Shown here piece after piece: positions 4,475 through 26,990 of a DNA stretch of 36,844 bases; the first letter of the stretch is position 1, and each line of letters opens with the position of its first letter. The position numbers and the translations under genes are program-made. The notes beneath the pieces were generated by a model. It ran no database searches. It was not told where the DNA came from and saw only the letters and a list, made by a program, of their open reading frames with translations. The stretch is from positions 1-36,844 of the IMG/VR virus record IMGVR_UViG_3300044825_001259, one strand, 5' to 3'. This DNA comes from a virus.

Positions 4475-5014
4475 ATGCCGCCACGCCGTGACCCTCTGAC
4501 CGTCGAGCAGCTCTCGGCCCGCGCAGGCGTCTCGCCGCGGACCTGGCGCACGCATCGAGAGCGCGGCGCGCCCGTTCCGCAAGGCAAAACCCCTCGAGAG
4601 GTCGAGCGGTGGCTGCTGGCCTATCACGCTTGGCGCCTAGACAACCTGGCGCAGCAAAAGCACGGCAACGACGACCAAGACCCCGAGGCCAACGAGGCCG
4701 ACGCCGAGGCCTGGAGCGTCGAGCGAAAGAAGTGGCTCGCGTTATTGGCAAAGACGGAGTGGCACCTCCGCACCGGCCGGCTCGTCCCGCGCGAAGAGGT
4801 CGTCGAGTTCGCGACCAAAGCCGGCTTGACCGTGCGCAACCGACTCAACGCCGCCGTCCCGAAACTGGCGCCGCTTGTCTACGCGGCCGAGAGCGAAGAG
4901 CAGGTCGAAGAGATCCTGCAGCTCGAGATCGACGAGATCCTCTCGACGTTCGCGCGCTCCCTCGAACCCCTCGACCAAGAGGTCGCCGCCGATGCCGACG
5001 AGCCTGCTGACTGA
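4475..5014 (+). CDS. Terminase small subunit (lambda Nu1-like)
   Basis: A 179-aa protein directly upstream of the large terminase. The N-terminus has a winged-helix/helix-turn-helix look (LTVEQLSARAGVSPRTWRTHRERGAPVP, residues 7-34), as in Nu1-type DNA-recognition subunits. It is followed by a charged helical middle and an acidic C-terminal tail that in this family contacts the large subunit. A role in recognising the packaging site follows from this architecture and gene order. The last 23 bases overlap the terL start. A basic phage regulator is the alternative, but the position makes it unlikely. Confidence 0.8.
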   Translation: MPPRRDPLTVEQLSARAGVSPRTWRTHRERGAPVPQGKTPREVERWLLAYHAWRLDNLAQQKHGNDDQDPEANEADAEAWSVERKKWLALLAKTEWHLRTGRLVPREEVVEFATKAGLTVRNRLNAAVPKLAPLVYAAESEEQVEEILQLEIDEILSTFARSLEPLDQEVAADADEPAD

Positions 5015-6875
5015 CTCGCACATCCTCGCCGCATTCCGGCAGCCTCGCCGGCTGACGGTCTCGCAGTGGGCCGACGAGCACCGCGTCCTCGACGAGCGCT
5101 TCGCCGCCGAGGCCGGCCGATGGCGCACCGACCGAGCGCCATACGCGCGCGAGTGGATGGACTCCGCGACCTCGAAGTGGGTCCGCCGCGTCTCGATCAT
5201 GGCGAGCACGCAGGTCGGCAAGACCGAGGCCGCGAACAACGTGCTCGGCTACTTCGTCCACCAGCAACCGGCGCCGGCGATGCTCGTCATGCCGCGCGCA
5301 GACGACGCTCGCCTCGCCGCCGAGCGGCGCATCCTGCCGATGATCCATGCGAGCCCGGGCCTGCGCGACGAGCTCACCGACCGCGCGCATGACACGAAGG
5401 CGCGCGAGATCGCGTTCCGCAGGAGCGTGCTCTATTTCCGCGCCGCGCAGAGCCCGGCCGACCTCGCGTCCGTCCCGGTCCGCGTGATCTGCGGCGACGA
5501 GATCGACAAGTGGCCGTCGTGGACCGGAAAAGAGGCGAACCCGCTCTCGCTGCTGGCCGAGCGCACGCACACCTACCCGCGCTCGCACCTGATCTTCCTG
5601 ACCTCGACGCCGACGACGCGCGACGGCCTGATCGCGCGCGAATACGAAGACGGCGACCAGCGCTCGTTCCTGGTGCCGTGCCCGCATTGCCAGACGCACC
5701 AGGCGCTGCGATGGCGCAACCTGCATTGGGATCGCGAGCGCATCACGACCGCGCGCGACATGCGCGTCGAGCGCAAAGCCTGGTTCGCCTGCGAGCGCTG
5801 CGGTGGGCAGATCGACGACGAGCACAAGCCGGCGATGATGCGCGCCGGCGTCTGGGTCCCGCGGCATTACACGCTCGAGCAGTGGCTTGCCGGCGCGCGC
5901 GAGGCCGACCGCGTCGAGCATCGCAGCTACCACATTTGGGCAGCCTATTCGCCGTGGCTTCCTTGGTGGCGCGTCGCTGCCGAGTTCCTGTCGTCGAAAG
6001 ACGAGCCGTCGAGGCTGATGAACTTCACCAACTCGTGGCTCGCCGAGGTCTGGGAGGAGCGGCTCGACGACGTCGGCGACGAAGCCGTCGCGGCCTGCCT
6101 CGAGCAACGCCGGCAGCTCGAGGTCCCGCCCGAGGTTCAGCTCGTCACCGGCTCCGTCGACGTGCAAAAGGACCGGCTCGAATGGTCCGTGCATGGATGG
6201 GGACTCAACGAGGAGACCTGGCTGCTCGCCGCCGGCAAGGTCACGACCTGGGAGGAGCTCGCCGAGGCCGTCGTGCTCTCGACGTGGGGAGACAAAAAGC
6301 TGCGGCCGCGCGCCGTGCTGATCGACTCGCGCTACCGCCGCGACGAGGTCATCGACTTTGCCCGCCAGTTCGCGCCGGTCGTCCGCATGATCGCCGGCGT
6401 CGAGCGCGACTCGCCGATCCCGTTCGGCACGCAGCGCCTCGACCGGCATCCGCGGACGGGCGCCGTCATGCCGGGCATGCAGGTCTGGACGATCAATGTC
6501 GGTATGTTCAAGGACCTCGCGCACGCGCGTCTCGCGCGAGCTCTCGAGAAGGACGCCGGACACACTGGCCGGATCCATCTGCCGATCGACCTGCCGGAGG
6601 ACTACGTCAAGCAGCTCTCAAGCGAGCACAAGGTCCGGCAACGCTCGGGCTCGCGCATGCGCACGCGCTGGACGCTGCGGCCCGGGCAGCAACGCAACGA
6701 GGCCTGGGATCTTCTCGTCTACCAGATCGCCGCCGCGCGCATGATTCGCGCCGACCTGCTCCGCGACGACGCGCAGCTCGTCGGTCTGCCGGCGCCGCCG
6801 ACGCCGAGCTCGCCGCCGCGGCGCGATCCGCGTCGAGAACCTAGGACGCGCTTTCCGCTGCTCGGAGGCCGATGA
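4992..6875 (+). CDS. terL: Terminase large subunit (lambda gpA-type)
   Basis: A 627-aa packaging motor of the gpA family. The ATPase domain shows Walker A-type ASTQVGKTE (Lys77) and Walker B-type VRVICGDEIDKWP. A Cys pair-rich insert reads CPHC and CERC, as in other gpA-type terminases. The C-terminal nuclease domain begins at GSVDVQKDRLEW with a likely metal-binding Asp. It would cut concatemeric DNA and translocate it into the prohead. The start at ATG 4992 lies inside the end of the small-subunit gene and gives the usual N-terminus; an in-frame extension further upstream would read through that gene. Length fits the family. Confidence 0.93.
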   Translation: MPTSLLTDSHILAAFRQPRRLTVSQWADEHRVLDERFAAEAGRWRTDRAPYAREWMDSATSKWVRRVSIMASTQVGKTEAANNVLGYFVHQQPAPAMLVMPRADDARLAAERRILPMIHASPGLRDELTDRAHDTKAREIAFRRSVLYFRAAQSPADLASVPVRVICGDEIDKWPSWTGKEANPLSLLAERTHTYPRSHLIFLTSTPTTRDGLIAREYEDGDQRSFLVPCPHCQTHQALRWRNLHWDRERITTARDMRVERKAWFACERCGGQIDDEHKPAMMRAGVWVPRHYTLEQWLAGAREADRVEHRSYHIWAAYSPWLPWWRVAAEFLSSKDEPSRLMNFTNSWLAEVWEERLDDVGDEAVAACLEQRRQLEVPPEVQLVTGSVDVQKDRLEWSVHGWGLNEETWLLAAGKVTTWEELAEAVVLSTWGDKKLRPRAVLIDSRYRRDEVIDFARQFAPVVRMIAGVERDSPIPFGTQRLDRHPRTGAVMPGMQVWTINVGMFKDLAHARLARALEKDAGHTGRIHLPIDLPEDYVKQLSSEHKVRQRSGSRMRTRWTLRPGQQRNEAWDLLVYQIAAARMIRADLLRDDAQLVGLPAPPTPSSPPRRDPRREPRTRFPLLGGR

Positions 6876-7105
6876 CGAATCCGCCGGCAGACGAGACCGA
6901 CGACACGCTGCCGGTCGTCCCGTTCGTCGCCTTCCGGTGTCCGCGCTGCAACGCGCACAAGCCGAGGACGCACGCCGTGCGAGGCCGATACCGGCAGCAC
7001 CGATGCCAGGCCTGCGGACTCGCCTACCGCTCGCTCGAGCTCACGCACGACGAGGCGCGCCGATGGTTCTCGACTCCGCAGAGCGGATCGAAGGCTATTC
7101 CCTGA
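6872..7105 (+). CDS. Small zinc-ribbon protein (77 aa)
   Basis: A 77-aa protein with FRCPRCNAHKPR and HRCQACGLAYRS, i.e. CxxC-x(n)-CxxC, the pattern of a zinc ribbon. It overlaps the terL stop by four bases (ATGA) and is presumably coupled to it. Small zinc-ribbon proteins occur near phage terminases and as regulators (for example Mu Com or Ogr/Delta types), but nothing here distinguishes between a regulatory and a packaging role. Confidence 0.75.
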   Translation: MTNPPADETDDTLPVVPFVAFRCPRCNAHKPRTHAVRGRYRQHRCQACGLAYRSLELTHDEARRWFSTPQSGSKAIP

Positions 7106-7189: not shown

Positions 7190-7217
7190 ATTTCTCCGTC
7201 TCTGGAGGCCTTGCCTA

Positions 7218-9308
7218 GTGGCCGTCCGCAAGATCCTACTCAACCTCGGGCAGAGCAACGCCGGCGCGCATCCCGACTACGAGACTTGGCGCGTGCCGAA
7301 CGCAGGCCTCGACGTAGCTCTCAACCCGCTCTCAAGCGCACATTTCTCCGGCGGATATTCGGACGTCTTCGACATGCCGGGCACCTGGCCGACGCGCTAC
7401 CAGAAAGCGCCGGTCAAGGGCTGCGCCGTGCAGGCGCTGCGCTACCTGACGTTCTACAACCCGACGGCAACCGGCCTCGGCTATACGCAGTTCCCGCACC
7501 GTGCCGTCGTCGGCGACATCATCTCGCACGACTCGTCGGCGACGAGCCTGCAGGTCGACAAGGTCTGGCAATACAACCCAACCGGACGCACGATTGTGCG
7601 GTCGCGCACGGGCACGACGCACACCATCGGCGCATGGGGCGGCACTGGTCCCGGCGGAGCGGCTACCGCGAACCAGATCGCGGTCGCGCCTGCATTCGAT
7701 CCGCCGCCGACCATTGGCGAGCAGATCGAATACCGACTTTATTCCGGCGCCGTAAGCCCGAACACGAGCACCGTCCTGCTCGACATGCGCTACGGAGGCA
7801 ACTACGGCGACGGCACCTGGCGCGGGTCGCTCGCCGGTCTTCGGCTCCGTTGCGTAGCGGGAACGAATGTCAACGTCTCACGGAACATCGACGCGCTGAC
7901 CCTGAACGGCGCCGTCATCGTCGAGCTCTCGTTCACTGCGGCCTGGCCGTCGCTGCCGCAGGCCGGCGACGAGTATGTCTGCGAACCGATTCCGCTCGCT
8001 TCCGGCGCCTCGCTGCCGTTCCGCAAGTTCGGATTCTTCCTGCCTTGGTCGCCGTTTGAGGGCGAAGCGCTGGAGACTTCGCGACCGGTCACTGCGGTCA
8101 TCGCTGTCCCTGCGTTTCCGGCTTTGGCCGCGCTCGCATTCGCGAACACCGGGCTCGGCGCGAGCGTGACAAACGACTTCGTCACGTTCACCGCCGACGT
8201 CGGGCAGCCGACAACCTACAACGGCACGCACAAGGTCCTTGCCTACACCGACACGGGCGTCGTCATCGGCGTCGCGTTCGGAGCAACGGCGACGGGCAAC
8301 GTCGCACGCATCGGAAAGAAGAACCCATACCCGCCGGGCTTCTCATTCCCGAACCACCACGACCAGCCGCCGATCTATCAACCGTTCCGCGCGACGTCGT
8401 TCATGTTCGGCGCCGGGTCGAAGTTCGTAACACCGCGCGCCGCGTTTCATATCACGCTGGCAAACCGGCTGCAGGAGTATCTCGGCGACACGATCTACGT
8501 CGCGAGCTGCTCGATCGACGGCGCGAAGCTGACGCACGACGAGCTCTCGCCGATCCAGACGATCGACGCCGTCGGATGGTTTGACCCACGGCAGCAAAAC
8601 TACTGGACGCCAGGCGAGCCGAATGGCGCTTTCGCGCGCATCCTTGAGGTCCTCGACACGATCGTCGCAGCGCTGGCCGATCAAGGAGATACCGGCGAGA
8701 TCGTCGCCGTGACATTCCCGCAGGGCGAGAGCGACGCCGGCGGCACGTCGACGGCGAATCGCTACGGCTCGGCGCTTGTCGGCTTCAAGGCCGCGCTGCG
8801 GTCGGCGATCAAGACGCGCAGCCTCTGGTCGCAGGACGAAAGCAAGATCCCGTTCGTGCATCCGAAGATTCGCGACGCGGCGCCGTGGACATACGCGAGC
8901 ACCGTCAACGCCGCGATCTCGGCAGCGGCCGACGCCGATGCATACTCGCGCACGGTCGAGGTCCAAGATCTGACCGTTCTGACCGAATCGCCGGCGAGCG
9001 TTCACTACGACGGCACGAGCGCGACCGTTCTCGCGAACCGGATCTTCGATGCATGGCTGCTCGCTCGAGCCGGCACGCCGGAGGTCCCTGCAACGCCGAC
9101 CCCGACGCCTGGCAGCGGCGGCGCCGCAGAGATCCTCGCCGTCATCGACCAGGCGATCGCGAGCGGCGGCGACGTCGCCGCCTACACGATCAACGGCCGC
9201 ACCGTGCAGCTCCGCTCGATGCAGGAGCTCATCGCGGCGCGCAAATACTTCCAGGCCGAGCTCGCGCGCGCGAGCGGTCTACGCCGCACCAAGATCGCCT
9301 TCCGATGA
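7218..9308 (+). CDS. SGNH-type esterase-like protein fused to a lambda gpW-like head-joining domain
   Basis: A 696-aa protein. The start GTG (7218) has GGAGG nine bases upstream. Residues 6-15 read ILLNLGQSNA, the block I signature of sialate O-acetylesterase/SGNH hydrolases with candidate nucleophile Ser13. FPQGESDA (about 500-507) matches the QGESD block, and SVHYDG supplies candidate His596, although the usual Asp three residues before His is absent. A Pro/Thr linker (TPEVPATPTPTPGSGG) leads into residues 635-696, where INGRTVQLRS, a KYFQAELA-type helix and the overall length match lambda gpW, the head-tail joining protein. The gene sits where W sits in lambda, between the large terminase and portal genes. 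The inferred product is an acetyl-polysaccharide esterase anchored at the head-tail neck. The esterase call is moderate; the gpW domain is supported by motif and position. Confidence 0.75.
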   Translation: MAVRKILLNLGQSNAGAHPDYETWRVPNAGLDVALNPLSSAHFSGGYSDVFDMPGTWPTRYQKAPVKGCAVQALRYLTFYNPTATGLGYTQFPHRAVVGDIISHDSSATSLQVDKVWQYNPTGRTIVRSRTGTTHTIGAWGGTGPGGAATANQIAVAPAFDPPPTIGEQIEYRLYSGAVSPNTSTVLLDMRYGGNYGDGTWRGSLAGLRLRCVAGTNVNVSRNIDALTLNGAVIVELSFTAAWPSLPQAGDEYVCEPIPLASGASLPFRKFGFFLPWSPFEGEALETSRPVTAVIAVPAFPALAALAFANTGLGASVTNDFVTFTADVGQPTTYNGTHKVLAYTDTGVVIGVAFGATATGNVARIGKKNPYPPGFSFPNHHDQPPIYQPFRATSFMFGAGSKFVTPRAAFHITLANRLQEYLGDTIYVASCSIDGAKLTHDELSPIQTIDAVGWFDPRQQNYWTPGEPNGAFARILEVLDTIVAALADQGDTGEIVAVTFPQGESDAGGTSTANRYGSALVGFKAALRSAIKTRSLWSQDESKIPFVHPKIRDAAPWTYASTVNAAISAAADADAYSRTVEVQDLTVLTESPASVHYDGTSATVLANRIFDAWLLARAGTPEVPATPTPTPGSGGAAEILAVIDQAIASGGDVAAYTINGRTVQLRSMQELIAARKYFQAELARASGLRRTKIAFR

Positions 9309-11038
9309 CTCGACGCATCCAGAACGCAGCGCCGCGCGCGCCGATCTACGCCGGCCTCTCTGGCCGCGTCTCGAGGATCTTCGATGCGGCGATCGGCATC
9401 GTCCTACCTGGCACCGCGCACAAGATGCGCAAGGCTAGGCTGCAAAACGAGGCGCTGCTTGCATACGAGGCCGCGACGTTCTCGCGCACGAACCCGATGC
9501 AGACGAGCGGCTCGGCCGACTCCGAGCTGCTGCCGGATCTGCAGAAGCTGCGCGACGTCTCGCGCACGATGGTCCGCGACGACGCACACGCAGCGGCCGC
9601 GCTCGGCATCCTCGAGGAGGCGATCGTCGGCGCCGGCATCCGGCCGCAGAGCGCCGCAACGCCGGAGGCGACCGGCTTGTCCGACGAGGCCTGCGCAGAA
9701 TGGCGCGCAGCATGCGAGGCCGAATGGCACCGCTGGGCAGAGAGCGACGCCGATGCGACGAAGCGCGGCACGTTCTACGACCTGCAGGCGCTCGCGCTCC
9801 GTTGCACGGTCGTCGACGGCGAGGCGATCGGGCACGCCGTCATCGGCGGCGACGGGCTCATCGCTTGCGAGCTCATCGACGCCGACCGTCTGCAGAGTCC
9901 GGGCTTCGTCGATAAGGATCGACTGCGCGGCGGCGTCGAGCTCGGCAACTTCGGCGAGGCCGTCGCGTATCACGTTCTGCCAGGTCATCCCGACGAGACG
10001 CTGCTCGGCGCCCGCTACACCGTGCAGCCGATCCGCATCGAGGCCGAGAGCAACGGCATCGCAATCGTGCAGCACTGCTTCCGCCGGCTGCGGCCCGGGC
10101 AGACGCGCGGCGTGCCGTGGCTGTCCGCGTCTGCGCAGTATCTGCAGCATCTGCACCACTACCTCAACAGCGAGCTGATCGCCGCGAGGGCCGCATCGAA
10201 CTACGCGCTATTCATCAAGCGCACGGTCTCGACGGTCGACCAAGATATCTTCCCCGTGCAGGCCAGCGAGACGGGCACGCAGCAGGACTACCACGAATAC
10301 CTCGAGCCCGGCACGATCGAATACCTCAACGAAGGCGAAGAGCCCGTCGCCTTCAACCCGAACCGGCCGGGCAGCGCGTTCACGCCTTTTGTCGAGCGCA
10401 TGCTGCGCGCGATCTCGTCCAGCATCGGCCTCTCCTACGAGGTCGTCGCGAAGGACTTCGGTCGGATGAACCTGAGCTCGGCGCGCGCGATGATGCGCGA
10501 ATGCCAGCGCGGCTTCGACCTGCATCGCGCGCGTTTGAATCGCACGTTCAACGCTCCCTGGTGGGCGAACGTCATCCGCATGGCCGTCGCGTCTGGCCGC
10601 ATCTCGGCGCCTGCCGGCTTCCTCGACGATCCGCAACCGTTCCTGGCTGCGCGGTGGGTCGCCCCGTCCTACGGCATGGTCGACCCGCAGAGCGACGTCG
10701 CAGCGGCGCGCGCTTCCATCGACGCGAACCTTTCGACGCCTTACGAGGAGGCCGCCAAATACGGCGCCGACGCCGAGCAGATCCTGCTCTCGCGCGCGCG
10801 ATTCCTGGCACGCGCTGCAGAGATCGAGCGCGAGTTCGGCCTCGAGGCCGGCGTGCTGACGAAGGCAAGCCCGCAACGCACCGAGAGCACGTCGATCATG
10901 GCCGAGCCCGTCGAGGACGAGACATCGGCCGCAGACGCAGCAGAAGACGCGGCCGAGGTCGATAGTCCCGGCGAGGTTGAGGACACCGCCGAAGACGCGG
11001 CCGAGGACGCAACCGAAGACACCACGGAGACCACATAA
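9305..11038 (+). CDS. Portal protein (lambda gpB family)
   Basis: A 577-aa portal-type protein. Family-like segments include KLRDVSRTMVRDDAHAAAAL near the N-terminus, DGEAIGHAVI, a conserved middle RGVPWLSASAQYLQHLHHY, and SSIGLSYEVVAKDFGRMNLS followed by SSARAMMRE. It forms the dodecameric DNA channel at the head vertex and the docking point for terminase and connectors. The ATG overlaps the upstream stop (ATGA). The C-terminus carries an unusual acidic tail of EDAAE/EDATE repeats (last 40 residues) that runs up to the protease gene. The in-frame extension upstream of 9305 is not needed. Confidence 0.9.
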   Translation: MTRRIQNAAPRAPIYAGLSGRVSRIFDAAIGIVLPGTAHKMRKARLQNEALLAYEAATFSRTNPMQTSGSADSELLPDLQKLRDVSRTMVRDDAHAAAALGILEEAIVGAGIRPQSAATPEATGLSDEACAEWRAACEAEWHRWAESDADATKRGTFYDLQALALRCTVVDGEAIGHAVIGGDGLIACELIDADRLQSPGFVDKDRLRGGVELGNFGEAVAYHVLPGHPDETLLGARYTVQPIRIEAESNGIAIVQHCFRRLRPGQTRGVPWLSASAQYLQHLHHYLNSELIAARAASNYALFIKRTVSTVDQDIFPVQASETGTQQDYHEYLEPGTIEYLNEGEEPVAFNPNRPGSAFTPFVERMLRAISSSIGLSYEVVAKDFGRMNLSSARAMMRECQRGFDLHRARLNRTFNAPWWANVIRMAVASGRISAPAGFLDDPQPFLAARWVAPSYGMVDPQSDVAAARASIDANLSTPYEEAAKYGADAEQILLSRARFLARAAEIEREFGLEAGVLTKASPQRTESTSIMAEPVEDETSAADAAEDAAEVDSPGEVEDTAEDAAEDATEDTTETT

Positions 11039-12132
11039 TGCACGACAAGATCCGCAACGCCGGCGCCGGCGACACCGTTGCCGTCCCTCGCCGCGCGCTT
11101 TTCCTGCGCGACTCGACGTCCGAGGTCCAGCTCGCCGCACCTGGTGACGAGCAGCCGCGCACGTTCTCGATGGTCGCGCTCACGGGCAAGCCTCTCGCGC
11201 ACTGGTATTTCGGCACGCTGGCCATCGACCTCGCCGGCGTCCGCATGAAGCAACGCCTCCCCGTGCTCAAGGATCACAACACCGAGGAGCGGCTCGGCTA
11301 CACGACGGCGATGCGCAACGAGCCCGGCCGCGGAATCGTCGCCGAGGGCCGTCTGCTGCAGCGCTCGCCGGCGGCGCAGCAGGTCCTCGCCGACTCGGCC
11401 GACGGCTTTCCGTGGCAGGCCTCGACCTACCTGCAGGCGAGCAAGATGCAGCGCCTGGCCGAAGGGCAGAGCGACGAGGTCAACGGCTACCGCGTCGCAG
11501 GACCTGCGACCATCTTCCGCGAATCGACTCTCCGCGAGGTCACCTTCACCGCGCTCGGCGTCGACGACGACACCTCGGCGACACCGCTCTCGGCGAATGG
11601 CGCCGACGACGAGGTCGCCGTCCTACTGACTGCAGACACCATGTCGAACCAGACCCCGGCCGAGCAGGCCGCACCCGCCGCGCCGGCGCCCGCCGCCGCG
11701 GATCTCTCTGCGCAGCTCGCGCAGGCGACGCAGACCGGCCTCGAGGCCGAGCGCGCTCGCGTTCTCGCAATCCTGTCGCAGGCTGCCGATGCGCAGCACG
11801 ACCTCGCGCGCGAGCTCATCACGAGCGGCGCGTCGCTGGCCGACGCGGCAAACAGAATCAACCAGGACCTGCGCGCGAAACTCGCGCAGGCCAAGATGCT
11901 GCCGGCGAGCTCGACCGCGAGCCTCGCGGTCGGCAACTCGGCGCAGGTCGTCCCGCAATCCGCCGACGCCGCTCTCGCTGCGCAGCCGGAAGGCGAGAAG
12001 AAGTGGCTCGCGCAGTGGGAGACCAGCGCCGAGCTGCAGCAAGAGTTCGGCGGCGACCAGAAGGTCTGGCTCGCCTATCAGCGCAACCAGGCCAACGTGC
12101 GCAACCACACGAAGAACACCAAGGCCAACTAA
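11038..12132 (+). CDS. Prohead protease with C-terminal scaffold-like region
   Basis: A 364-aa protein between portal and capsid genes. The N-terminal 190 residues show a prohead-protease layout: VLKDHNTEERLGY (candidate His), GFPWQASTYLQ (candidate Ser), and FRESTLREVTFTALGVDDD. From about residue 200 it turns into a Gln/Ala-rich helical region, typical of an internal scaffold released by cleavage. The order portal-protease-scaffold-capsid supports this. The start ATG shares one base with the portal stop TAA. A second initiation inside the gene (Met at TMSNQTPAEQ, near residue 202) could give a free scaffold, as lambda C/Nu3 does; that is inference. Confidence 0.82.
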   Translation: MHDKIRNAGAGDTVAVPRRALFLRDSTSEVQLAAPGDEQPRTFSMVALTGKPLAHWYFGTLAIDLAGVRMKQRLPVLKDHNTEERLGYTTAMRNEPGRGIVAEGRLLQRSPAAQQVLADSADGFPWQASTYLQASKMQRLAEGQSDEVNGYRVAGPATIFRESTLREVTFTALGVDDDTSATPLSANGADDEVAVLLTADTMSNQTPAEQAAPAAPAPAAADLSAQLAQATQTGLEAERARVLAILSQAADAQHDLARELITSGASLADAANRINQDLRAKLAQAKMLPASSTASLAVGNSAQVVPQSADAALAAQPEGEKKWLAQWETSAELQQEFGGDQKVWLAYQRNQANVRNHTKNTKAN

Positions 12133-12147
12133 CCAGGAGCAACACAC

Positions 12148-13068
12148 ATGACTCTCAACCTCAAGGGCCTCGGGTCGCGCGCGATCATCGGGGCATTCTT
12201 CAAGCGCCTCGAGGAGGCGCAGACGGCCGGCTGGACCGCCGACGTCGCGACGATGTTCAACAGCAACCAGGAGAGCGAGACGTATACGTTCCTCTCCGAC
12301 TCGCCGTCGCTGACCGAGTGGAGCAGCAACCGCACGGCGCAGTCGATGAAGCGCTTCGAGTTCGCGGTCAAGAACAAGAAGTTCAGCGCCGGTTTGCAGA
12401 TCGACGAAGACGATCTTCGTCGCGACAAGACGGGGCAAGTCTTGGTGCGCGTCAACGAGCTCGCGGCTCGCGCTGCGCAACTCCCGCAGCGCATCATCTC
12501 CGACCTGCTCATCGCCAACGGCAACGCATACGACGGCGTCGCGTTCTACGCGACGACGCACAAGACGGAGAGCGGCGCGACGGTCGACAACATCGTCCAG
12601 CAGACCTGCTCGGTGTCCGGCGTGCCGACCGTCTCGGAGGCCGCGAGCGGCATCCTGACGGCCATTACGCGCATCATGTCGTTCGTCGACGATTCCGGCG
12701 AGCCGCGTAACGAGTTCGCTCGTCGCTTCGCGGTCATGGTTCCGGCCGCGCTTTACGGCGCCGTCGTCGGCGCGATTCGCAACGACTTCTTGACCAGTGG
12801 CTCGAGCAACCAGCTCATGGCGACCGGCATGGAGATCGTCCCCTACATCAACTCGCGACTGACCGCGACGGACAAGGCCTACGTCTTCCGCACTGACGCG
12901 GATGTTCGCGCCTTCGTTTGGCAGGACGAGGTCGCGCCGATGATGTCCACCCTCGAAGAGGGCTCGGACTTCCACACCCTCAACGACGCGCGCATGTTCT
13001 TCGCGAAGCGCGTCTGCAACGGCGGCTATGGTCGATTCGACCAGACGGTTCGCCTCACCTTCGCCTAA
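12148..13068 (+). CDS. Major capsid protein (Mu gpT-like)
   Basis: A 306-aa protein with the look of the Mu major head subunit: early WTADVATMFNSNQESETY, EFAVKNKKFSAGLQI, DDLRRDKTGQVLVRVNELA, QRIISDLLIANG, DGVAFYATTHK, a middle variable stretch, and an ending with FFAKRVCNGGYGRFDQT. It would assemble the HK97-fold capsid. AGGAG at 12135-12139, nine bases before the ATG, is one of the clearest ribosome sites in the window, as expected for the most abundant virion protein. The Mu-type subunit sits in an otherwise lambda-type gene order. Confidence 0.88.
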   Translation: MTLNLKGLGSRAIIGAFFKRLEEAQTAGWTADVATMFNSNQESETYTFLSDSPSLTEWSSNRTAQSMKRFEFAVKNKKFSAGLQIDEDDLRRDKTGQVLVRVNELAARAAQLPQRIISDLLIANGNAYDGVAFYATTHKTESGATVDNIVQQTCSVSGVPTVSEAASGILTAITRIMSFVDDSGEPRNEFARRFAVMVPAALYGAVVGAIRNDFLTSGSSNQLMATGMEIVPYINSRLTATDKAYVFRTDADVRAFVWQDEVAPMMSTLEEGSDFHTLNDARMFFAKRVCNGGYGRFDQTVRLTFA

Positions 13069-13540: not shown

Positions 13541-13756
13541 ATGCGCGACTACACGCTGCAGGAGATCTCGACGGGGCGCGTCCTGGGGACGGCCCGCATC
13601 GCCGACGACATCGGTCCGGGCGAGCTCGTGCTCGCGTTCCGGCGCGATCTGCTGCGCGTTTCCGAGGTCGTCGAGGTCGGCGTCGTTGCCGAGCTCGACG
13701 ACAAGCCCGCGCCGGCGGCAACGCCGGCAGCGCGGCCGCGGAGGTCGAAGACGTGA
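13541..13756 (+). CDS. Small protein between decoration and connector genes (71 aa)
   Basis: A 71-aa protein (MRDYTLQEISTGRVLGTARI at the start) ending with an Ala/Pro/Arg-rich tail. It lies seven bases after the previous stop, and its stop overlaps the next GTG (GTGA). The position corresponds to lambda FI or a small head-completion factor, but no motif confirms this. The function is unknown. Confidence 0.6.
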   Translation: MRDYTLQEISTGRVLGTARIADDIGPGELVLAFRRDLLRVSEVVEVGVVAELDDKPAPAATPAARPRRSKT

Positions 13757-14097
13757 CCCTTCGCGAGACGATGGCGCGCCATGCGCGCGACACGCTGACC
13801 CGCCTGGACCATCTGGGCGAGGTCATCACATACACACCGAAGAGCGGCTCCGAGCGCCAGGTCCGCGCGGTCGTCAACCGTCTTGACGTCGAGCCCGCAT
13901 CCGGCGACGCGCGCCAGGTCGGCCGGCTTCGCGCGATCATCGAGATACCGCGCGGCACGACCTACGGCGTCGAGGCCGTCGTGCCGGGCGATCGCGTCAC
14001 GCTGGCGATGCGGCTCGGCGGCGCCGAGCTCGTCGCGCGCGTCCGCCGGATCATCACGCAGGACGAGGGCACGTTCGCGCTCGAGGTTGAGGCCTGA
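13753..14097 (+). CDS. Head-tail connector-like protein (114 aa)
   Basis: A 114-aa protein with a helical start and a beta-rich remainder (EVITYTPKSGSERQVRAVV, GDRVTLAMRLGGAELVARV, ending GTFALEVEA). The size, fold impression and position just before Z/U-like genes fit a gpFII-type stopper or connector. The start is GTG at 13753, overlapping the upstream stop by four bases; the +1 ORF covering the same DNA is a shadow. Confidence 0.6.
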   Translation: MTLRETMARHARDTLTRLDHLGEVITYTPKSGSERQVRAVVNRLDVEPASGDARQVGRLRAIIEIPRGTTYGVEAVVPGDRVTLAMRLGGAELVARVRRIITQDEGTFALEVEA

Positions 14098-17917: not shown

Positions 17918-20143
17918 ATGGCACGATCTGAAAAACGCACGCTCTCGATCGAGGCTCGGCTCAAAAACTACATAAAGGGCGACCTCAACGCGCTCGAGCG
18001 CGGCATCGGCCGATTCGCGCTGGTGTCCGTTCGCTCGTTCCAGAACCTCAAGGGCGCGCTATTCAACGTCAAGAGCGCCGTCGCCGGCGTCGGCGTCGCG
18101 TTCGGCGCGATCAAGTTCGCGCAGTTCGCGCGCGAGACGGCGGAGCAGGCCGACGACCTGCGCGACCTCGCGACCGCGACGGGCGATCTCGTCGAAAACC
18201 TCTCCGAGCTGCAGGCCGCCTTCAAGCTGTCGGGCATCAACGGCGACGCATTCGAAGGCACGGTCCTCGCGCTCGCGAAAGCGCAGCGCCAAGCGCTCGA
18301 CGGCAACCAGCAGGTCGCCGCCGGCTTCAAGGACCTCGGCATCACGCTCGACGAGCTGCGCAACCTGGCGCCGTCGGCGCTATTCGAGCAAATGTCCGCC
18401 GGCCTCGAGCAATACAACACCGAGCAGGACAAGGCCGTCGCGCTCGGCAAGGTCGTCCCCAAGCAGTTCCTCGAGCTGCTGCCGGCGATCGGGCAGGGCG
18501 TCGCAGAGTTCCAGCAGAACATCGCCGACGTCCGCCAGGTCGGCGCGACGCTGACCGAGGAGCAGGCCACCTCCGCGGCCGCCGTGACCGAGGCGCTCGA
18601 CAAGTTGGGCATCGCGACGGACTCCGTCGGCCGCTCTCTGCTGCAGGCTTTCGGGCCGGAGGTCGCAGGATACCTCGACGGACTGGCGCGGCTCATCGCG
18701 AACAACCGCGACGCGATCGCGGACTTCGCGAAAGCAATCGGCACGCTCGTCGTCAAGGCGGTCGGCGCGGCGGTCGACGCGATCATCGGACTCATCGACC
18801 TCATCGACGAGATCCCCGGCGTCAACCTGCTCTCGGAAGAGGACAAGCGCAGGATCGAGGAGGTCGACGCGCTGCTCGGTCGACTCTACGACAAGCAGAG
18901 ACGACTAAGCGTGGTTCTTGGACCGACCGGCACCGGCATGCGGCGAGGCCGCGACGTCCAAGACATTCGCGACGAGCTCGCCGAAACGCAGCAGACGATC
19001 CTGCTGCAGGAGCAGGCAAAGCGGCAGCTCGAGCAAACCGGCTCAGTCGCGCAGAGACTTCGCGACGTGAAGCGCGAGATCGCGGAGCAAAGCGCGGCGG
19101 CCGCAGACGCTATTCGCCGCGAGGCCGAGGCGACGCGGCAGGTCGCGCAGCAGCAGGCCGCGGCGCCGGCAAACAACCCACAACAGAACGGCATCCCGGC
19201 GCTAGGTCTGCCGTCGCTGTCCAAGCTCGCCGACTACGCGCGCCAGGTCGGCACACAGCTCTCGTCGGTCTTCCGTTCGACCAGAGGACAGCAGGCGCCG
19301 ACCGTCTCGCGCGACGACGCGCTGGCGACGCAGAAGGAGACGCTCGCCGTGCAGCAGCAGATCGCCGCACTACGCGAAAACGAGCAAGCTCTGCGCAACC
19401 TGGCCGTCGAGGCCGAGAAGCTGCAGCTCGAGGAGATCTTCAACGAGGGCAAGATCTCGGCGGAGGAATACGCCGAGGTCCTGGCGTTACTCAACAACCG
19501 CCAAGAGAAGCTGAAACAGCTCGTTAGCGGCGGAGACTTCTGGCGAGGATTCAACGAAGGAGCGAGCGACGCGATTCGCGAGCTCACGGACCTGACCGAG
19601 ATCGGACGCGAAGGAGGTCGAGCTCTTGTCGACGCATTCGGCAGCGGTCTCACAGACGCGCTGACCGATATCGCAATGGGAACCAAGACCGCTAGCCAGG
19701 CCTTCCGCGATATGGCTCGCGTCATCATCGGCGAGATCGCTCGCATCGCCGCAAAGATGCTGACCGCAAAGATCGTCTCGTCGATATTCGGCGCGCCTGC
19801 GCTCGCCGACGGCGGCGTCATGCCGGGCCAGGTCACCGGCACGGCTCCCGTCCGCGCTTTCGCTCGAGGCGGCATCGCACGCCGGCCGACGATGGCGCTG
19901 TTCGGCGAAGGCAACAACGCCGAGGCCTTTGTGCCGTTGCCGGACAACCGCAGCATCCCGGTCAGCTTCGTCGGCGGTGGCGCTCAGACTGGCACGCAGG
20001 TCTCGATCAACATCACGGCGATGGATTCGCGCGATGTGCATCGAGCGCTGCTCGAGCAGCAGGGCACGCTGCGGCAGATCTTCACTAACCAGCTAGAAAC
20101 CAAGAACGGACTGCGCGGCGCCGTGCGCAGGGCGGCGAGCTGA
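17918..20143 (+). CDS. Tail tape measure protein (741 aa)
   Basis: A long helical protein with the order expected of a lambda H-type tape measure. It opens with a basic N-terminus, then RSFQNLKGALFNVKSAVAGV, a hydrophobic region around residues 275-300 (LVVKAVGAAVDAIIGLIDLI), Gln/Ala-rich coiled-coil stretches in 340-510, and a C-terminal GGVMPGQVTGTAPVRAF / GGIARRPTMALFGEGN motif common in tape measures. It sets tail length; 741 residues predicts a tail of roughly 110 nm by the usual 1.5 angstrom per residue rule. AGGAG lies eight bases before the ATG. Confidence 0.93.
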   Translation: MARSEKRTLSIEARLKNYIKGDLNALERGIGRFALVSVRSFQNLKGALFNVKSAVAGVGVAFGAIKFAQFARETAEQADDLRDLATATGDLVENLSELQAAFKLSGINGDAFEGTVLALAKAQRQALDGNQQVAAGFKDLGITLDELRNLAPSALFEQMSAGLEQYNTEQDKAVALGKVVPKQFLELLPAIGQGVAEFQQNIADVRQVGATLTEEQATSAAAVTEALDKLGIATDSVGRSLLQAFGPEVAGYLDGLARLIANNRDAIADFAKAIGTLVVKAVGAAVDAIIGLIDLIDEIPGVNLLSEEDKRRIEEVDALLGRLYDKQRRLSVVLGPTGTGMRRGRDVQDIRDELAETQQTILLQEQAKRQLEQTGSVAQRLRDVKREIAEQSAAAADAIRREAEATRQVAQQQAAAPANNPQQNGIPALGLPSLSKLADYARQVGTQLSSVFRSTRGQQAPTVSRDDALATQKETLAVQQQIAALRENEQALRNLAVEAEKLQLEEIFNEGKISAEEYAEVLALLNNRQEKLKQLVSGGDFWRGFNEGASDAIRELTDLTEIGREGGRALVDAFGSGLTDALTDIAMGTKTASQAFRDMARVIIGEIARIAAKMLTAKIVSSIFGAPALADGGVMPGQVTGTAPVRAFARGGIARRPTMALFGEGNNAEAFVPLPDNRSIPVSFVGGGAQTGTQVSINITAMDSRDVHRALLEQQGTLRQIFTNQLETKNGLRGAVRRAAS

Positions 20144-22640: not shown

Positions 22641-23056
22641 CGGCCGAGGAGTGGCAGGACATTCTGCGCAGCCGATACCGGCTAGGAGGACGCACGGCCG
22701 GCGTCGAGCTCGACTGCCTCGGCACCGTCCTCGAAGCATGCCGGCGCCTCGGCCTTTGCTTGCCGGACCCGTGGGCCGACATTCGCCGGCAGTGGCTAGC
22801 AGGGCACGTCGAGGCCGCATGCGGCTTCCCTCCGTGCTGGGTCCGCAGAGCGGAGCCGTTCGACTTGCGCGAGGGCGACGTCTTGCTGTTCTATGGGTCG
22901 CACCCATGGGTCGCGATCGTCGCATATGCGCACGTCTGGAGCGCCGATATCGAGCTCGGCAGCGCCTACGCGCGGCCGCTGTTTCGATGGACGAAGCAGC
23001 CGGCCGAGGTCTGGTCGCATGATCCGGCTGCATGTTCGCCGAGGCCTGCTCGGTAG
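22637..23056 (+). CDS. Tail tip cysteine peptidase, NlpC/P60-like (lambda gpK position)
   Basis: A 139-aa protein with an NlpC/P60 layout: ELDCLGTVLEACRRLGL with candidate nucleophile Cys27, then EGDVLLFYGSHPWVAIV with candidate His89. Enzymes of this family cut peptidoglycan stem peptides; in lambda-type tails the gpK domain helps tail assembly and cell-wall entry. The start overlaps the gpL-like stop (ATGA), and the end overlaps the next gene by 38 bases. Lambda gpK also has an N-terminal Mov34-type domain that is missing here. Confidence 0.8.
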   Translation: MTAEEWQDILRSRYRLGGRTAGVELDCLGTVLEACRRLGLCLPDPWADIRRQWLAGHVEAACGFPPCWVRRAEPFDLREGDVLLFYGSHPWVAIVAYAHVWSADIELGSAYARPLFRWTKQPAEVWSHDPAACSPRPAR

Positions 23057-26000
23057 CGACGGCGTCGAGACGTTCCCGATCGAGCATCGCGCCGGCATCA
23101 CGCCGCGGCAGCTCGCTTTCGCGGTCGAGCAGCATCTGCCGAAGACCGTGGCGATCGAGGTCGCGCTCAACGGCGAAAGGCTGGACGACGCAAGCCTCGA
23201 CGAAGCGCTGCCGGACGATTGCGATCTCATGCTGCTGCCGATCACTAGCACCGGCATCGAGATCGGCGCCATGATCGTCCAGGCGCTGGTGACGGCAGCC
23301 GTCCTGTTCGCGGTCAACTACGTCGTCTCCATCCTTTCGCCGCGCCAACGGCCGGATGGCGAAGGCCAAGAGCGAGGCGACGAGAGCTCGCCGACCTACG
23401 CCTGGGACGGCATTCAAACCAACTACGGGCAGGGCTTCCCCGTGCCGTGGGTCTACGGCCGGCACGCCGTCGGCGGCCAAGTCATCTACACCGACGTCTC
23501 TGCGCAAAGCAACCTCGTCGGCGTCGACGACCGTTTGCGCATCATCCTCGCGCTGTGCGAAGGTCCGATCGCGCGCATCGGCAATACGACCGCGAACGTC
23601 GTCGACGATCTGGGCGCTATCGTCCCCGTGGGAGGATTGCCACCGACAACCTACCAGCCTCTGCCTAGCGACATTCGCATAAATGGGAATCTGCTAGTCA
23701 ACACCAATACGCAAACGCAGATCTGGGCAATCACCACTAGTCTGTGGACGCGTAGCGATGGCAATCCTAACGTCGTTTACCCTGAGGTCGGCGACATTGT
23801 TACTTTTTGGGATCGCTTCCCAGGGTATTCGCTGATTCGGCATAACGTGCGCGGAGTCGGTTACGTTGCAAATCTACGCAACGGCAACCCAAGAGAGCTC
23901 GACATCGTCATAACGTCAGGCACTGGCGGCGTAGTTACTGACTGGATCGCTTTAGGGTCAAACAACCTAGAGACCGACATCGGGCCGCCGCAATCCTGGG
24001 AGGTCGCTACAGAAGGGCATGCGCAAATAGCACTGGCTTCCAACGGCTTACTATTCACAGACGTACCAGGCGCTCGCCTATGGATTCGTCCAGGTCTGCT
24101 CGACCAACCAGCTTTGCCCGGGTCGGTATTTCCTGGCGCCGTGACAACATACAGCCCAGGCCAGCAACTCAACGAACAAGGCGAGCAGGTCATCTATACA
24201 TACAATGGGACCGATACTGTTAGCATGGTATCTTTTGTCCTTGTATTTCCTGGCGGACTTTATGCCTTATCTCCGCAGGGTGACGTGCTGCCGTATACTG
24301 TTCGCTTTGCTTATGAATGGCGGCGCGTTGGGGCCGCTACATGGAACACGCCTGCGGAAATACCGACGCAAACCATCACGGCAACTACTCAGCAACAATA
24401 CGCCACAAGCTGGTCGATGCCGATCGGCTCCACGGCCGCGCCGGTAGCAGGTCCGCTCGAGATCCGGCTCAAGCGACTCACGCCGTCCGGTGGCACGCTG
24501 ACCGTCTCATCGGCGATCTGGCGCAACCTGACGATCGCGACGCCGCAGACGCTGACTTATCCCCGCGTCGCTCTTCTCGGCCTCGAGCTCTCCGCCGGCG
24601 CGCGCTTTTCTGGAGGCCTTCCAGAATGCAACGTGCGAATCGACGGAGCGCAGGTCCGCGTCTGGGATGCGACGCACGGATGGTCGTCGCCGACTTGGGA
24701 TAAGCCGCCGGCGCCGCATAACTGGATGACCTACGCGCCAGGGCGCAACCCGGCCTGGATCCTCCTCGACTTCCTGCTGGCTCCTTGGGGGCTCGGCCGG
24801 TGGCTTTCCGAAGCCGACGTCGACCTGCCGGCGTTCCGTCGCTGGTCGATCTTCTGCGACAAGGACCCTGCGCCGGCGACACCGTGGGGCGAGCAGGCCT
24901 TCACCTGCGACCTCGTCGGCGACGCACCGCGACCGGCTTGGGAATACGTCCTCGCGATTTGTGCCGCCGGCCGAGCGACCCCGGTTTACCGCAACGGCAA
25001 GATCTCGATCGTCTACCAATACCGCGACGCGCATGCCGACTCGCTTGTCTCTGTGCCAGCGAAGACCGCCGTGCAACTGCTGACGAGCGGCAACTGCGAA
25101 AACGTTCAGGTGACCTGGCTACCAAAGGCCAACCGAGCGACCGCGTATTTGTTCCAATACTTGAACGAGACGCAGCTCTACGCGCAGGACGTCTTCCCGG
25201 TCGAGGATGGCGAAGGCACGCTCAACGACCCGGCCAACTTGCAGGGCGAGGAATATCGACCCGAAACCGTGCAGGCCTGGGGAGTGACCAGGCCGTCGCA
25301 GATCTACCGCGAGGGCGTATTCCGGCATCGCGCGACGCGTCTGATCCGCCGCGAGCTCGTCTTCACGACCGGCCCGTGGGCGCTCGCCGCTGAGGTCGGC
25401 GACGTCATCAAGTTCGAGCACGAGCTGCTGCGACCATTCGGCGCCGACGTGCCGACGGCGATGTCCGTCGTCAAAGACGGCACGGCGACCAACCAGATAG
25501 AGGTCGACCACATCGTCGTCGGAGCGACGCAGGTCGTCGTGCGAGACGTCAACGGCGTCGCGCAGACGCGAACCATCACGGGCATCGTGACCAGCGGCGG
25601 CATCTCAAGGCTGACGGTCTCCGGCGCATCTGTGACGATTAAGAAGGGCGCCGCGGCCGTCGTCGGACTGGTCGATAAACTGGTCGAGGAATACGAGGTC
25701 GTCGGGATCACGCTGCAAAAGGACCTGAAGAGGGAGGTCCGTTGTCTGCAGTGGGTCCCTGCACTGCACGACCCGATCCCGCCAAGCGCCTACGACGGCG
25801 CCGGCGTCGACGCAGCAGAAAGCACGCCGGCCGGATATCTCCGGCAACCTGCGCAGGACGGAGAGCCGGAGGTCGAATCGGTCCGCATCCTGCCGCAACG
25901 CGACGCGAGCTTGTCCGTGACCTGGTCAAAGCCGATCGGGCGCAGGCAGGCGAACGTCCGCGTTTATGTCCGCGACGCAGCAATCGGCGAATGGCGCAGC

Positions 26001-26990
26001 CTAGGAGAGCATGCAGACGACAACGTGGTCGTCCGAGGCCTCGCTGCAGGTCGCTCCTACATCTTCGCGGCATGCCTCGAGCGCGTCGACGGCACCTACC
26101 AACTGCCCGAGCAGGCTACGCAAACGACCTACACCGTGCCGGAGTTCGGCGCGTTTGCATTGCCTGCGGTTAGCAACCTCACCGCGACAGACGCCGGCGA
26201 CTGTGTCGTCGTCCGATGGGACGCTCTCGGCATGCGCGACGTCGTCGGCTACGAGATTCGCGTCGGGCAGGACTGGGCCGCCGGCGAGGTCATCTACCGC
26301 GGCGCAGAAAACGACGCCGAGCTGCGGCCGGCACCATACGGCGGCACGCTGCTCGTCGCCGCACGGTCGGTCTCGGGGCTCTACGGCACCGTCGCATCGG
26401 TCACGGCGCCGACCTGGCGACCGTATCCAACGGCGCAGCAGGTCGCGCTCGACGATCTGGCAGCAGCTCCTGCCGGCACGCATAGCGGCACGGTCTACAC
26501 CGGAGGCCGCATCGAGCTCACCTCGGGCACCCTCGCAGGCACATACACCGGACCCGAGCTCGACCTGACCTACCAGGCCAACGGCTACTGGCAGGTCTCG
26601 CGCGAGGCCAGAGAGATCGAGCTGGACACCGTGGACGACCTGTCGTTCGCGATCGACAGCGGCGAAGCGCTATGGCGCACCCTGAACGGCAGGCCGGCGA
26701 GCCCGTGCTCGCCAGGCATCGACTGGCAGACCACCGTCGACGACCTGGCGATGACTCTCGACGACCTGCCGTTCTCGTTTCTTGTGCATGGCAACGTCGG
26801 CGAGCCGGGCTCGCATACGCGCGCCGCGCTCGAGACGCGCTACTTCGCGAACGGGGCCTGGTCGGCCTGGTCGACACATCGAGACACCTACCGCGTCGCG
26901 AGCAAACTGCAGGCGCGCGTCCGCATCTTCCGCGAGGACCTCGGCTACTCTCCGAGCATCACGCGACTCCGCTACTCTGTGAGCCTCTAG
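23019..26990 (+). CDS. Tail tip/host specificity protein, fused I- and J-like (1323 aa)
   Basis: A 1323-aa tail fibre tip. Residues 1-110 resemble an I-like module with a hydrophobic segment (MIVQALVTAAVLFAVNYVV). The J-like part begins at YGQGFPVPWVYGRHAVGGQV, a highly typical J motif, and includes PRVALLGLELSAGARFSGGL, ILLDFLLAPWGLGRWLSEAD and two fibronectin type III-like stretches (about 955-1130). The last 300 residues are probably the receptor-binding end. The start at ATG 23019 lies inside the preceding gene and gives MIRLHVRRGLLGSDGV. A low-GC segment of about 0.8 kb (23640-24415) interrupts the J core and looks acquired. Confidence 0.88.
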   Translation: MIRLHVRRGLLGSDGVETFPIEHRAGITPRQLAFAVEQHLPKTVAIEVALNGERLDDASLDEALPDDCDLMLLPITSTGIEIGAMIVQALVTAAVLFAVNYVVSILSPRQRPDGEGQERGDESSPTYAWDGIQTNYGQGFPVPWVYGRHAVGGQVIYTDVSAQSNLVGVDDRLRIILALCEGPIARIGNTTANVVDDLGAIVPVGGLPPTTYQPLPSDIRINGNLLVNTNTQTQIWAITTSLWTRSDGNPNVVYPEVGDIVTFWDRFPGYSLIRHNVRGVGYVANLRNGNPRELDIVITSGTGGVVTDWIALGSNNLETDIGPPQSWEVATEGHAQIALASNGLLFTDVPGARLWIRPGLLDQPALPGSVFPGAVTTYSPGQQLNEQGEQVIYTYNGTDTVSMVSFVLVFPGGLYALSPQGDVLPYTVRFAYEWRRVGAATWNTPAEIPTQTITATTQQQYATSWSMPIGSTAAPVAGPLEIRLKRLTPSGGTLTVSSAIWRNLTIATPQTLTYPRVALLGLELSAGARFSGGLPECNVRIDGAQVRVWDATHGWSSPTWDKPPAPHNWMTYAPGRNPAWILLDFLLAPWGLGRWLSEADVDLPAFRRWSIFCDKDPAPATPWGEQAFTCDLVGDAPRPAWEYVLAICAAGRATPVYRNGKISIVYQYRDAHADSLVSVPAKTAVQLLTSGNCENVQVTWLPKANRATAYLFQYLNETQLYAQDVFPVEDGEGTLNDPANLQGEEYRPETVQAWGVTRPSQIYREGVFRHRATRLIRRELVFTTGPWALAAEVGDVIKFEHELLRPFGADVPTAMSVVKDGTATNQIEVDHIVVGATQVVVRDVNGVAQTRTITGIVTSGGISRLTVSGASVTIKKGAAAVVGLVDKLVEEYEVVGITLQKDLKREVRCLQWVPALHDPIPPSAYDGAGVDAAESTPAGYLRQPAQDGEPEVESVRILPQRDASLSVTWSKPIGRRQANVRVYVRDAAIGEWRSLGEHADDNVVVRGLAAGRSYIFAACLERVDGTYQLPEQATQTTYTVPEFGAFALPAVSNLTATDAGDCVVVRWDALGMRDVVGYEIRVGQDWAAGEVIYRGAENDAELRPAPYGGTLLVAARSVSGLYGTVASVTAPTWRPYPTAQQVALDDLAAAPAGTHSGTVYTGGRIELTSGTLAGTYTGPELDLTYQANGYWQVSREAREIELDTVDDLSFAIDSGEALWRTLNGRPASPCSPGIDWQTTVDDLAMTLDDLPFSFLVHGNVGEPGSHTRAALETRYFANGAWSAWSTHRDTYRVASKLQARVRIFREDLGYSPSITRLRYSVSL

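Follow-up and report, generated by a model that had tools for sequence, protein, structure and literature searches.

An esterase-fold domain fused to the gpW-type head-tail adaptor of a lambda-like phage, and its recurrence on other neck proteins

Introduction

Virion enzymes that attack polysaccharides are known on the spikes, fibres and baseplates of phages, and gpW, the head-tail adaptor of phage lambda, is a free-standing protein of 68 amino acids. Here we analyse the IMG/VR virus record IMGVR_UViG_3300044825_001259, the entire 36,844 bases of which are called the window below, and in which one gene (7218-9308) joins a SASA-type SGNH esterase domain to a C-terminal gpW-type adaptor domain. 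The fusion, the folds of its two parts, its position, its recurrence in other contigs, the exchange of the esterase and the purifying selection acting on it were all worked out by computation.

Several described systems resemble one or the other part of this protein. The R4C adaptor (8gtd_M), according to its report (PMC10276861), likewise has a gpW-like tube domain at its C-terminus and, at its N-terminus, an additional domain lying outside the capsid, and is present in 12 copies, but this additional domain is immunoglobulin (Ig)-like and ~106 amino acids long, whereas that of the window is a 612-residue SGNH esterase. Virion-borne SGNH esterases are also described (Pan3 tailspike 9vyh; G7C gp63.1 and the spikes of Pectobacterium phage Q19, PMC7693777), but these are carried by tail spikes or fibres and not by a neck adaptor. 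Both spike-borne SGNH esterases and a gpW-like adaptor bearing an Ig domain are thus already known. The SASA-type esterases 1zmb, Arabidopsis At4g34215 (2apj) and Escherichia coli NanS (3pt5) share with the window protein the fold and the GQSN, GExD and His elements, but the window protein lacks the Asp of their DxxH motif, has a large beta-rich insertion and is fused to an adaptor. An inserted beta domain similarly divides the SGNH core of the CE20 esterases (9ega, Z 19.2; 9h4u, Z 18.4), for which PMC12313940 mentions this ancillary domain, a non-classical acid residue and, in some members, a water-mediated triad; these enzymes, however, are bacterial and of the xylan type. Finally, T7-gp11-like connectors (PHROG 394/9239, 8ck1) and HK97/SPP1-type Ad1 adaptors (PHROG 477), which are usually bare, form the C-terminal part of fusions with this esterase family elsewhere among the contigs. 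None of the titles and abstract openings returned by searches of open-access literature reports an esterase fused to a neck adaptor, which does not prove that no such report exists.

A single gene joins an SGNH fold to a gpW-type adaptor

Residues 482-613 match the Pfam SASA profile (PF03629; E = 1.1e-6, score 28.9 bits, curated threshold 24.8), and P0002, P0003 and P0004 likewise pass the curated cutoff of this family. A phmmer search of the PDB with P0001 returned no match. The AlphaFold model of the fusion used here was built from an alignment of 31 related rows and has a predicted local distance difference test score (pLDDT) of 87.3 and a predicted template modelling score of 0.82 (a nine-row alignment gave a pLDDT of 57.5). 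It predicts a three-layer SGNH fold, the core of which matches 1zmb in a fold search (Z 24.6, root-mean-square deviation 2.0 over 220 residues), followed by 2apj (Z 24.3), the tailspike of cyanopodophage Pan3 (9vyh, Z 22.2) and NanS (Z 22.0). In the model, this core is interrupted by a beta-rich stretch of ~270 residues. Two unnamed viral proteins of BFVD also match the fold strongly (E = 1.3e-50 and 2.8e-29), so that unannotated relatives exist in UniProt.

Block I (GQSN) corresponds to residues 11-14, with Ser13 as the putative nucleophile, the QGESD block to residues 502-506 (GExD at 503-506), and the putative catalytic His596 lies in a terminal VHY. Profile, motifs and fold therefore agree with the earlier note on this sequence, which had recognized GQSN and QGESD blocks of the sialate O-acetylesterase type. 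The note had also remarked that the Asp expected three residues before the His is missing, and Ala593 indeed replaces it, so that the window protein has no classical triad. Because of this missing Asp, our claim is restricted to the fold and the likely ligand and does not extend to a classical enzyme. Ser-His dyads are known in the SGNH superfamily.

At the other end of the protein, PHROG 2545 ('head-tail adaptor Ad1') matches residues 640-691 (E = 1.1e-6, and 3.4e-8 with the C-terminal piece alone), with weaker matches of this domain to PHROG 118 (E = 8.6e-5) and PHROG 5774. The last 62 residues are predicted to form a helix (636-648), two strands (654-658 and 661-665) and a second helix (668-685), with a pLDDT of about 70-87 over residues 631-680. 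This is the helix-strand-strand-helix order of lambda gpW, and the gpW-like character that the earlier note had attributed to these residues is borne out. The genomic position, also pointed out in the note, is that of a W gene: the gpA-type large terminase subunit is followed by a small Cys-rich protein, the fusion and a lambda-type portal, and the stop codon of the fusion shares the four bases ATGA with the portal ATG, the same overlap as between lambda W (2633-2839) and B (from 2836) in the A-W-B order. The gene preceding the portal encodes a free-standing small protein in lambda, Haddon, SNW-1, 473R2 and PCA1. Of the solved chains, the R4C adaptor 8gtd_M comes closest in a profile comparison (E = 0.015), and nothing convincing was found in the PDB with the profile of alignment A9. 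Searching phage records with the gpW piece by tblastn gave seven weak records, of which Curvibacter phage PCA1 (E = 0.2; a standalone protein between terminase and portal) is the only one annotated 'head-tail adaptor'.

The Pro/Thr-rich linker between the two domains is modelled with low confidence (pLDDT 45 in the block of residues 621-630, and below 50 over residues 623-632) and variable among relatives (5-73% identity). The earlier note had observed that it holds no ATG from which gpW could be freed, and the same is true of other start codons: no in-frame ATG, GTG or TTG occurs from 45 codons upstream of the gpW domain to 27 codons inside it. Release of a separate gpW from an internal start was rejected in this way for both the window and contig L012, neither linker containing such a codon, and a six-frame search of the window with a profile of its gpW clade detected no second gpW.

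Close relatives exchange the esterase but keep the adaptor

A portal scan identified three contigs with portals 95-96% identical to that of the window (L009, L010 and L012), in each of which the adaptor gene encodes this fusion too. Their gpW domains are 97-98% identical to that of the window but their esterases only 49-50%. Between the window and L012, DNA identity is mostly 84-100% in both flanks (70% over the initial 200 bases of the comparison) against 12-69% in the esterase, and synonymous divergence (dS) reaches 0.86 in the esterase against 0.16 in gpW. Replacement of the esterase allele by recombination would explain this most simply; with such a divergent esterase beside a nearly identical portal and gpW, the domain appears to be exchanged like a receptor-binding domain.

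Altogether, the esterase-gpW fusion is present in 10 contigs other than the window (among them L001, L003, L006, L007, L009, L010, L012, L018 and L080), and the gpW domain is 53-98% identical in relatives. Among close pairs within each type, the ratio of nonsynonymous to synonymous divergence of the esterase is 0.05-0.13; the domain is thus under purifying selection. The recurrence of the fusion and this selection rule out a chance open reading frame (ORF).

A related arrangement was observed in L020, where a SASA-type domain distinct from that of the window (Pfam E = 2.1e-8) is fused to a gpW 56% identical to that of the window, again between terminase and portal. This protein (L020:980-4159) has 1059 amino acids, and its further N-terminal part of ~550 amino acids may be a second SGNH-like domain. 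Its gpW domain has an ATG at codon 4 with GAGG upstream, from which a separate gpW may be released. L023 is a partial copy, and L024 turned out to be a false match.

The same esterase is carried by other neck proteins

In contig L002, an esterase 61% identical to that of the window is fused to a different adaptor, which matches PHROG 477 ('head-tail adaptor Ad1', E = 6.8e-30) and Pfam DnaT_2 (PF20557, E = 3.8e-25), and the fusion gene is located between the major head protein gene and the Hc1, Neck1 and tail-terminator genes. According to a published neck survey (PMC4362835), gpW and SPP1 gp15 (Ad1) are homologous neither in sequence nor in structure. The name of PF20557, 'putative DnaT-like ssDNA binding', looks misleading, as the family here marks Ad1 head-tail adaptors, with PHROG 477 matches and connector neighbours.

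A wider esterase scan returned 61 contigs, in which the partner is a T7-gp11-like tail-tubular protein (TTPA) in 36 cases, a PHROG 477 adaptor (Ad477) in 11, gpW in 10 and none of these in four, three of which are cut by the contig end while the fourth (L035) has another C-terminus. No loose adaptor ORF occurs in any of these 61 loci. A last scan added seven contigs (three Ad477, one TTPA, L215 of the L035 type and two cut). Besides the window, the family thus comprises 68 IMG/VR contigs, which are not 68 phages: of 63 ORFs compared, 43 are distinct at 95% identity. In all 63 contigs with a complete C-terminus (37 TTPA, 14 Ad477, 10 gpW and two of an unclassified type 4) the esterase is N-terminal to the neck module, and the window is the 64th case. 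The earlier note had considered the neck an unusual site for such an enzyme; the fusion is real, but it is not a single odd case, as the module recurs on several unrelated neck proteins.

The TTPA partners match PHROG 394 (E = 5e-33 to 7e-43) or PHROG 9239, as well as 'Connector Protein' 8ck1 of the PDB (E = 6.4e-28); in L057 and L078 they are followed by a tail gene of PHROG 376. We take the PHROG 394 proteins to be T7-gp11-like from the name of PHROG 9239 ('tail tubular protein'), their position and their motifs. The PHROG 376-type tail protein of L057 (L057:6213-9584) has 1123 amino acids and matches its 712-position profile from end to end, and therefore contains about 400 extra residues. 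The two type 4 modules (L035:6846-7328 and L215:6397-6888) are 52% identical to each other and match no PHROG or Pfam family. In both contigs the next gene is a 'tail completion or Neck1' gene (PHROG 26, E = 1.9e-4 and 1.2e-22), a position that suggests a neck role for the module, which is possibly an undescribed head-completion protein. A relationship to Mu gp36 was rejected (hhalign probability 0.1%), and the module was left unclassified. A match that seemed to reveal yuavirus adaptors fused to an endolysin was also discarded, because it spans two adjacent genes.

As all these examples are metagenome contigs, and as tblastn with six esterase queries found no match in 50,697 phage records, assembly chimeras or mis-joined contigs have to be considered. 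Megablast of positions 1-25000 of the window in phage records gave no match either, and neither the esterase nor the gpW domain was found in scans of genome contigs. However, the 68 contigs come from many datasets, with the above number of distinct ORFs, the junctions are in frame and the domain is under purifying selection, which makes such artefacts hardly conceivable.

In contigs collected solely by a match to the adaptor, this protein, with one exception, either stands bare or is fused to this esterase. Of the Ad477 adaptors in 42 contigs, 28 are bare, 13 are joined to the esterase and one (L120) has a 107-residue N-terminal extension of another kind; among the best 80 of 595 TTPA contigs, a sample biased towards near relatives, 70 are bare, nine carry the esterase and one is cut. 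In a quick tree built from 39 esterase domains (incomplete rows L038, L042, L053, L058 and L082 left out), supported by the SH-like approximate likelihood ratio test (SH-aLRT) only and with L080 on a long branch, adaptor type changes at least six times, the minimum for three types being two. If anything this number is low, since L035 was labelled Ad477 although it is of type 4. L002 (Ad477) nests within the gpW clade with an SH-aLRT of 98-100.

These counts also bear on the possibility that a protease, for example the head maturation protease encoded in the window, cuts the linker, gpW then going to the neck and the esterase being set free to act, for example, on exopolysaccharide at lysis. 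The low model confidence and the variability of the linker would suit such a cut, but the linker alignment contains no conserved cleavage site, the same domain order on the other neck proteins would demand a cut every time, and a free enzyme needs no fusion, yet the esterase is fused in all complete cases. We regard this scenario as improbable.

A proposed collar on the neck, and the catalytic residues

We propose that the fusion is the sole gpW-type adaptor of the phage and that, with its N-terminal carbohydrate-esterase-fold domain, it probably builds a portable neck collar which cleaves or binds polysaccharide. Copy number, outside location, substrate and catalysis we infer as follows. The C-terminal 62 residues would form a ring under the portal, in an expected 12 copies by analogy with R4C, and the flexible linker would allow the SASA domains to stand out as a collar outside the neck. 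There the collar would cleave O-acetyl groups off the polysaccharide of the host capsule, lipopolysaccharide or biofilm, or at any rate bind to it. The module is portable, related phages having placed the esterase on several neck proteins and swapping its alleles as they do receptor-binding domains. In podophage-like members, the adaptor of which would be near the cell, the module could function in much the same way as a tailspike. For siphophages, weak glycan binding or a part played in thick capsule, slime or biofilm seems more likely.

More generally, we lean towards the view that the neck is a mounting site for host-surface enzymes. One SASA-type family occupies at least three adaptor families (gpW, HK97/SPP1-type Ad1 and T7-gp11-type) and a fourth, unclassified module, in phages with differing head and tail genes, and would be exchanged like a receptor-binding domain, forming a collar of deacetylases or lectins next to where the genome leaves the head. 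If true, a recurrent and exchangeable esterase on the adaptor ring would be a second enzyme site, with a copy number set by the ring and coupled to an essential part. It would make it possible to test for an action of neck-borne domains on biofilm or capsule; such domains could be predicted from adaptor length alone, and the adaptor would be a candidate anchor point for enzyme display on phage necks.

Several points weigh against the collar. No isolate with the esterase was found, every example being a metagenome contig. The neck of a long-tailed phage is far from the cell surface, so that a role in adsorption is less obvious for siphophages, and the R4C authors (PMC10276861) judged adsorption unlikely for their N-terminal domain. 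The DxxH Asp is lost in the window, in nine of the 10 other gpW-linked contigs and in L002, and the Ser is lost in a TTPA-linked clade of nine contigs, which have GQN. As to the adaptor, no Pfam family naming gpW reached an E-value of 1, and when hhalign compared the gpW set directly with an alignment of four rows, lambda gpW and three further standalone adaptors, the match was weak (E = 0.0034, probability 9.5%).

The last two results would be expected if the likeness to gpW were accidental and the gene encoded a tail-fibre-type esterase merely adjoining the portal. Against this stand the PHROG 2545 match, the predicted order of elements, the A-W-B position with its ATGA overlap, the lack of any other gpW in the window and the presence of the same esterase on undoubted adaptors in related phages; we consider an accidental likeness very improbable.

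Regarding the active site, block I reads GQS in 47 of the 61 contigs of the wider scan, GQN in nine and GQE in two, and is lost with the 5' end in three, so that GQS is kept in 47 of the 58 contigs where it is readable. The DxxH Asp is kept in 36 of the 61 (24 TTPA, 10 Ad477, one type 4 and, with gpW, L080). The GQN clade consists of L041, L043-L047, L049, L050 and L074, three of which also have Tyr instead of the His, and is likely a binding-only branch, judging from these replacements. Since the Asp is lost in gpW-linked contigs and the Ser in the TTPA clade, selection keeps more than catalysis, and from these counts the family gives the impression of enzymes, some branches of which may be confined to binding. 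For the window copy itself, weakened catalysis or pure binding appears about as likely as full activity. The doubt about activity expressed in the earlier note thus stands for the clade of the window but not for the family as a whole.

The same losses could be taken to indicate a structural clamp, that is an SGNH fold without an enzymatic role, lost or never used, which braces the neck against the capsid like the Ig 'attachment domain' of R4C. According to PMC10276861, the N-terminal domain of the R4C adaptor touches the capsid and is judged an unlikely adsorption device. Nevertheless, the majority of readable contigs keep GQS and more than half keep the DxxH Asp, the swapping of alleles between near relatives would be unexpected for a clamp, and a single capsid interface is unlikely, as the same domain is attached to neck proteins from more than one family in phages whose head genes differ. 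A clamp thus seems unlikely to us, and the polysaccharide-directed collar remains our preferred explanation.

Genome context

The features of the fusion gene and of its surroundings are given in Table 1. The gpFII-type attachment protein and the J-type tail fibre identify the record as a lambda-like siphophage.

Table 1. Features of the fusion gene and neighbouring genes in the window
Feature	Position	Strand	Basis or remark
Whole fusion gene	7218..9308	+	GTG start, 696 amino acids, single ORF
Probable ribosome-binding site GGAGG	7204..7208	+	9 nt upstream of GTG, read from sequence
SASA/SGNH-type esterase domain, residues 1-612	7218..9053	+	Pfam SASA, AlphaFold model, fold matches, motifs
Beta-rich stretch, residues about 95-365, between block I and remaining SGNH core	7500..8312	+	Model secondary structure; limits approximate
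Sub-domain, residues about 290-365, absent from near relatives L009, L010, L012	8084..8312	+	Alignment
Pro/Thr-rich linker, residues 613-634	9054..9119	+	Low model confidence, no start codon
gpW-type head-tail adaptor domain, residues 635-696	9120..9305	+	PHROG 2545, predicted helix/strand order
Terminase small subunit	4475..5014	+	PHROG 57, E = 1e-16
Terminase large subunit, gpA type	4875..6875	+	Pfam GpA_ATPase, E = 6.9e-71
Small Cys-rich, zinc-ribbon-like protein	6872..7105	+	Weak Pfam/PHROG matches; similar ORF at same place in L001, L003
Portal, lambda family	9305..11038	+	Pfam Phage_portal_2, E = 1.1e-83
Head maturation protease	11038..12132	+	PHROG 3244, E = 1.6e-18
Major head protein	12148..13068	+	PHROG 371, E = 1.2e-32
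Head-tail attachment protein, gpFII/stopper type	13753..14097	+	Pfam Phage_attach, E = 1.4e-5
Tape measure protein	17918..20143	+	PHROG 1292, 2276, others
Central tail fibre J	22893..26990	+	PHROG 31, E = 1.9e-78

The tail-tip host-recognition protein is thus encoded separately, as a J homologue, and the esterase-fold domain sits on the adaptor and not on a spike, a fibre or the tail tip.

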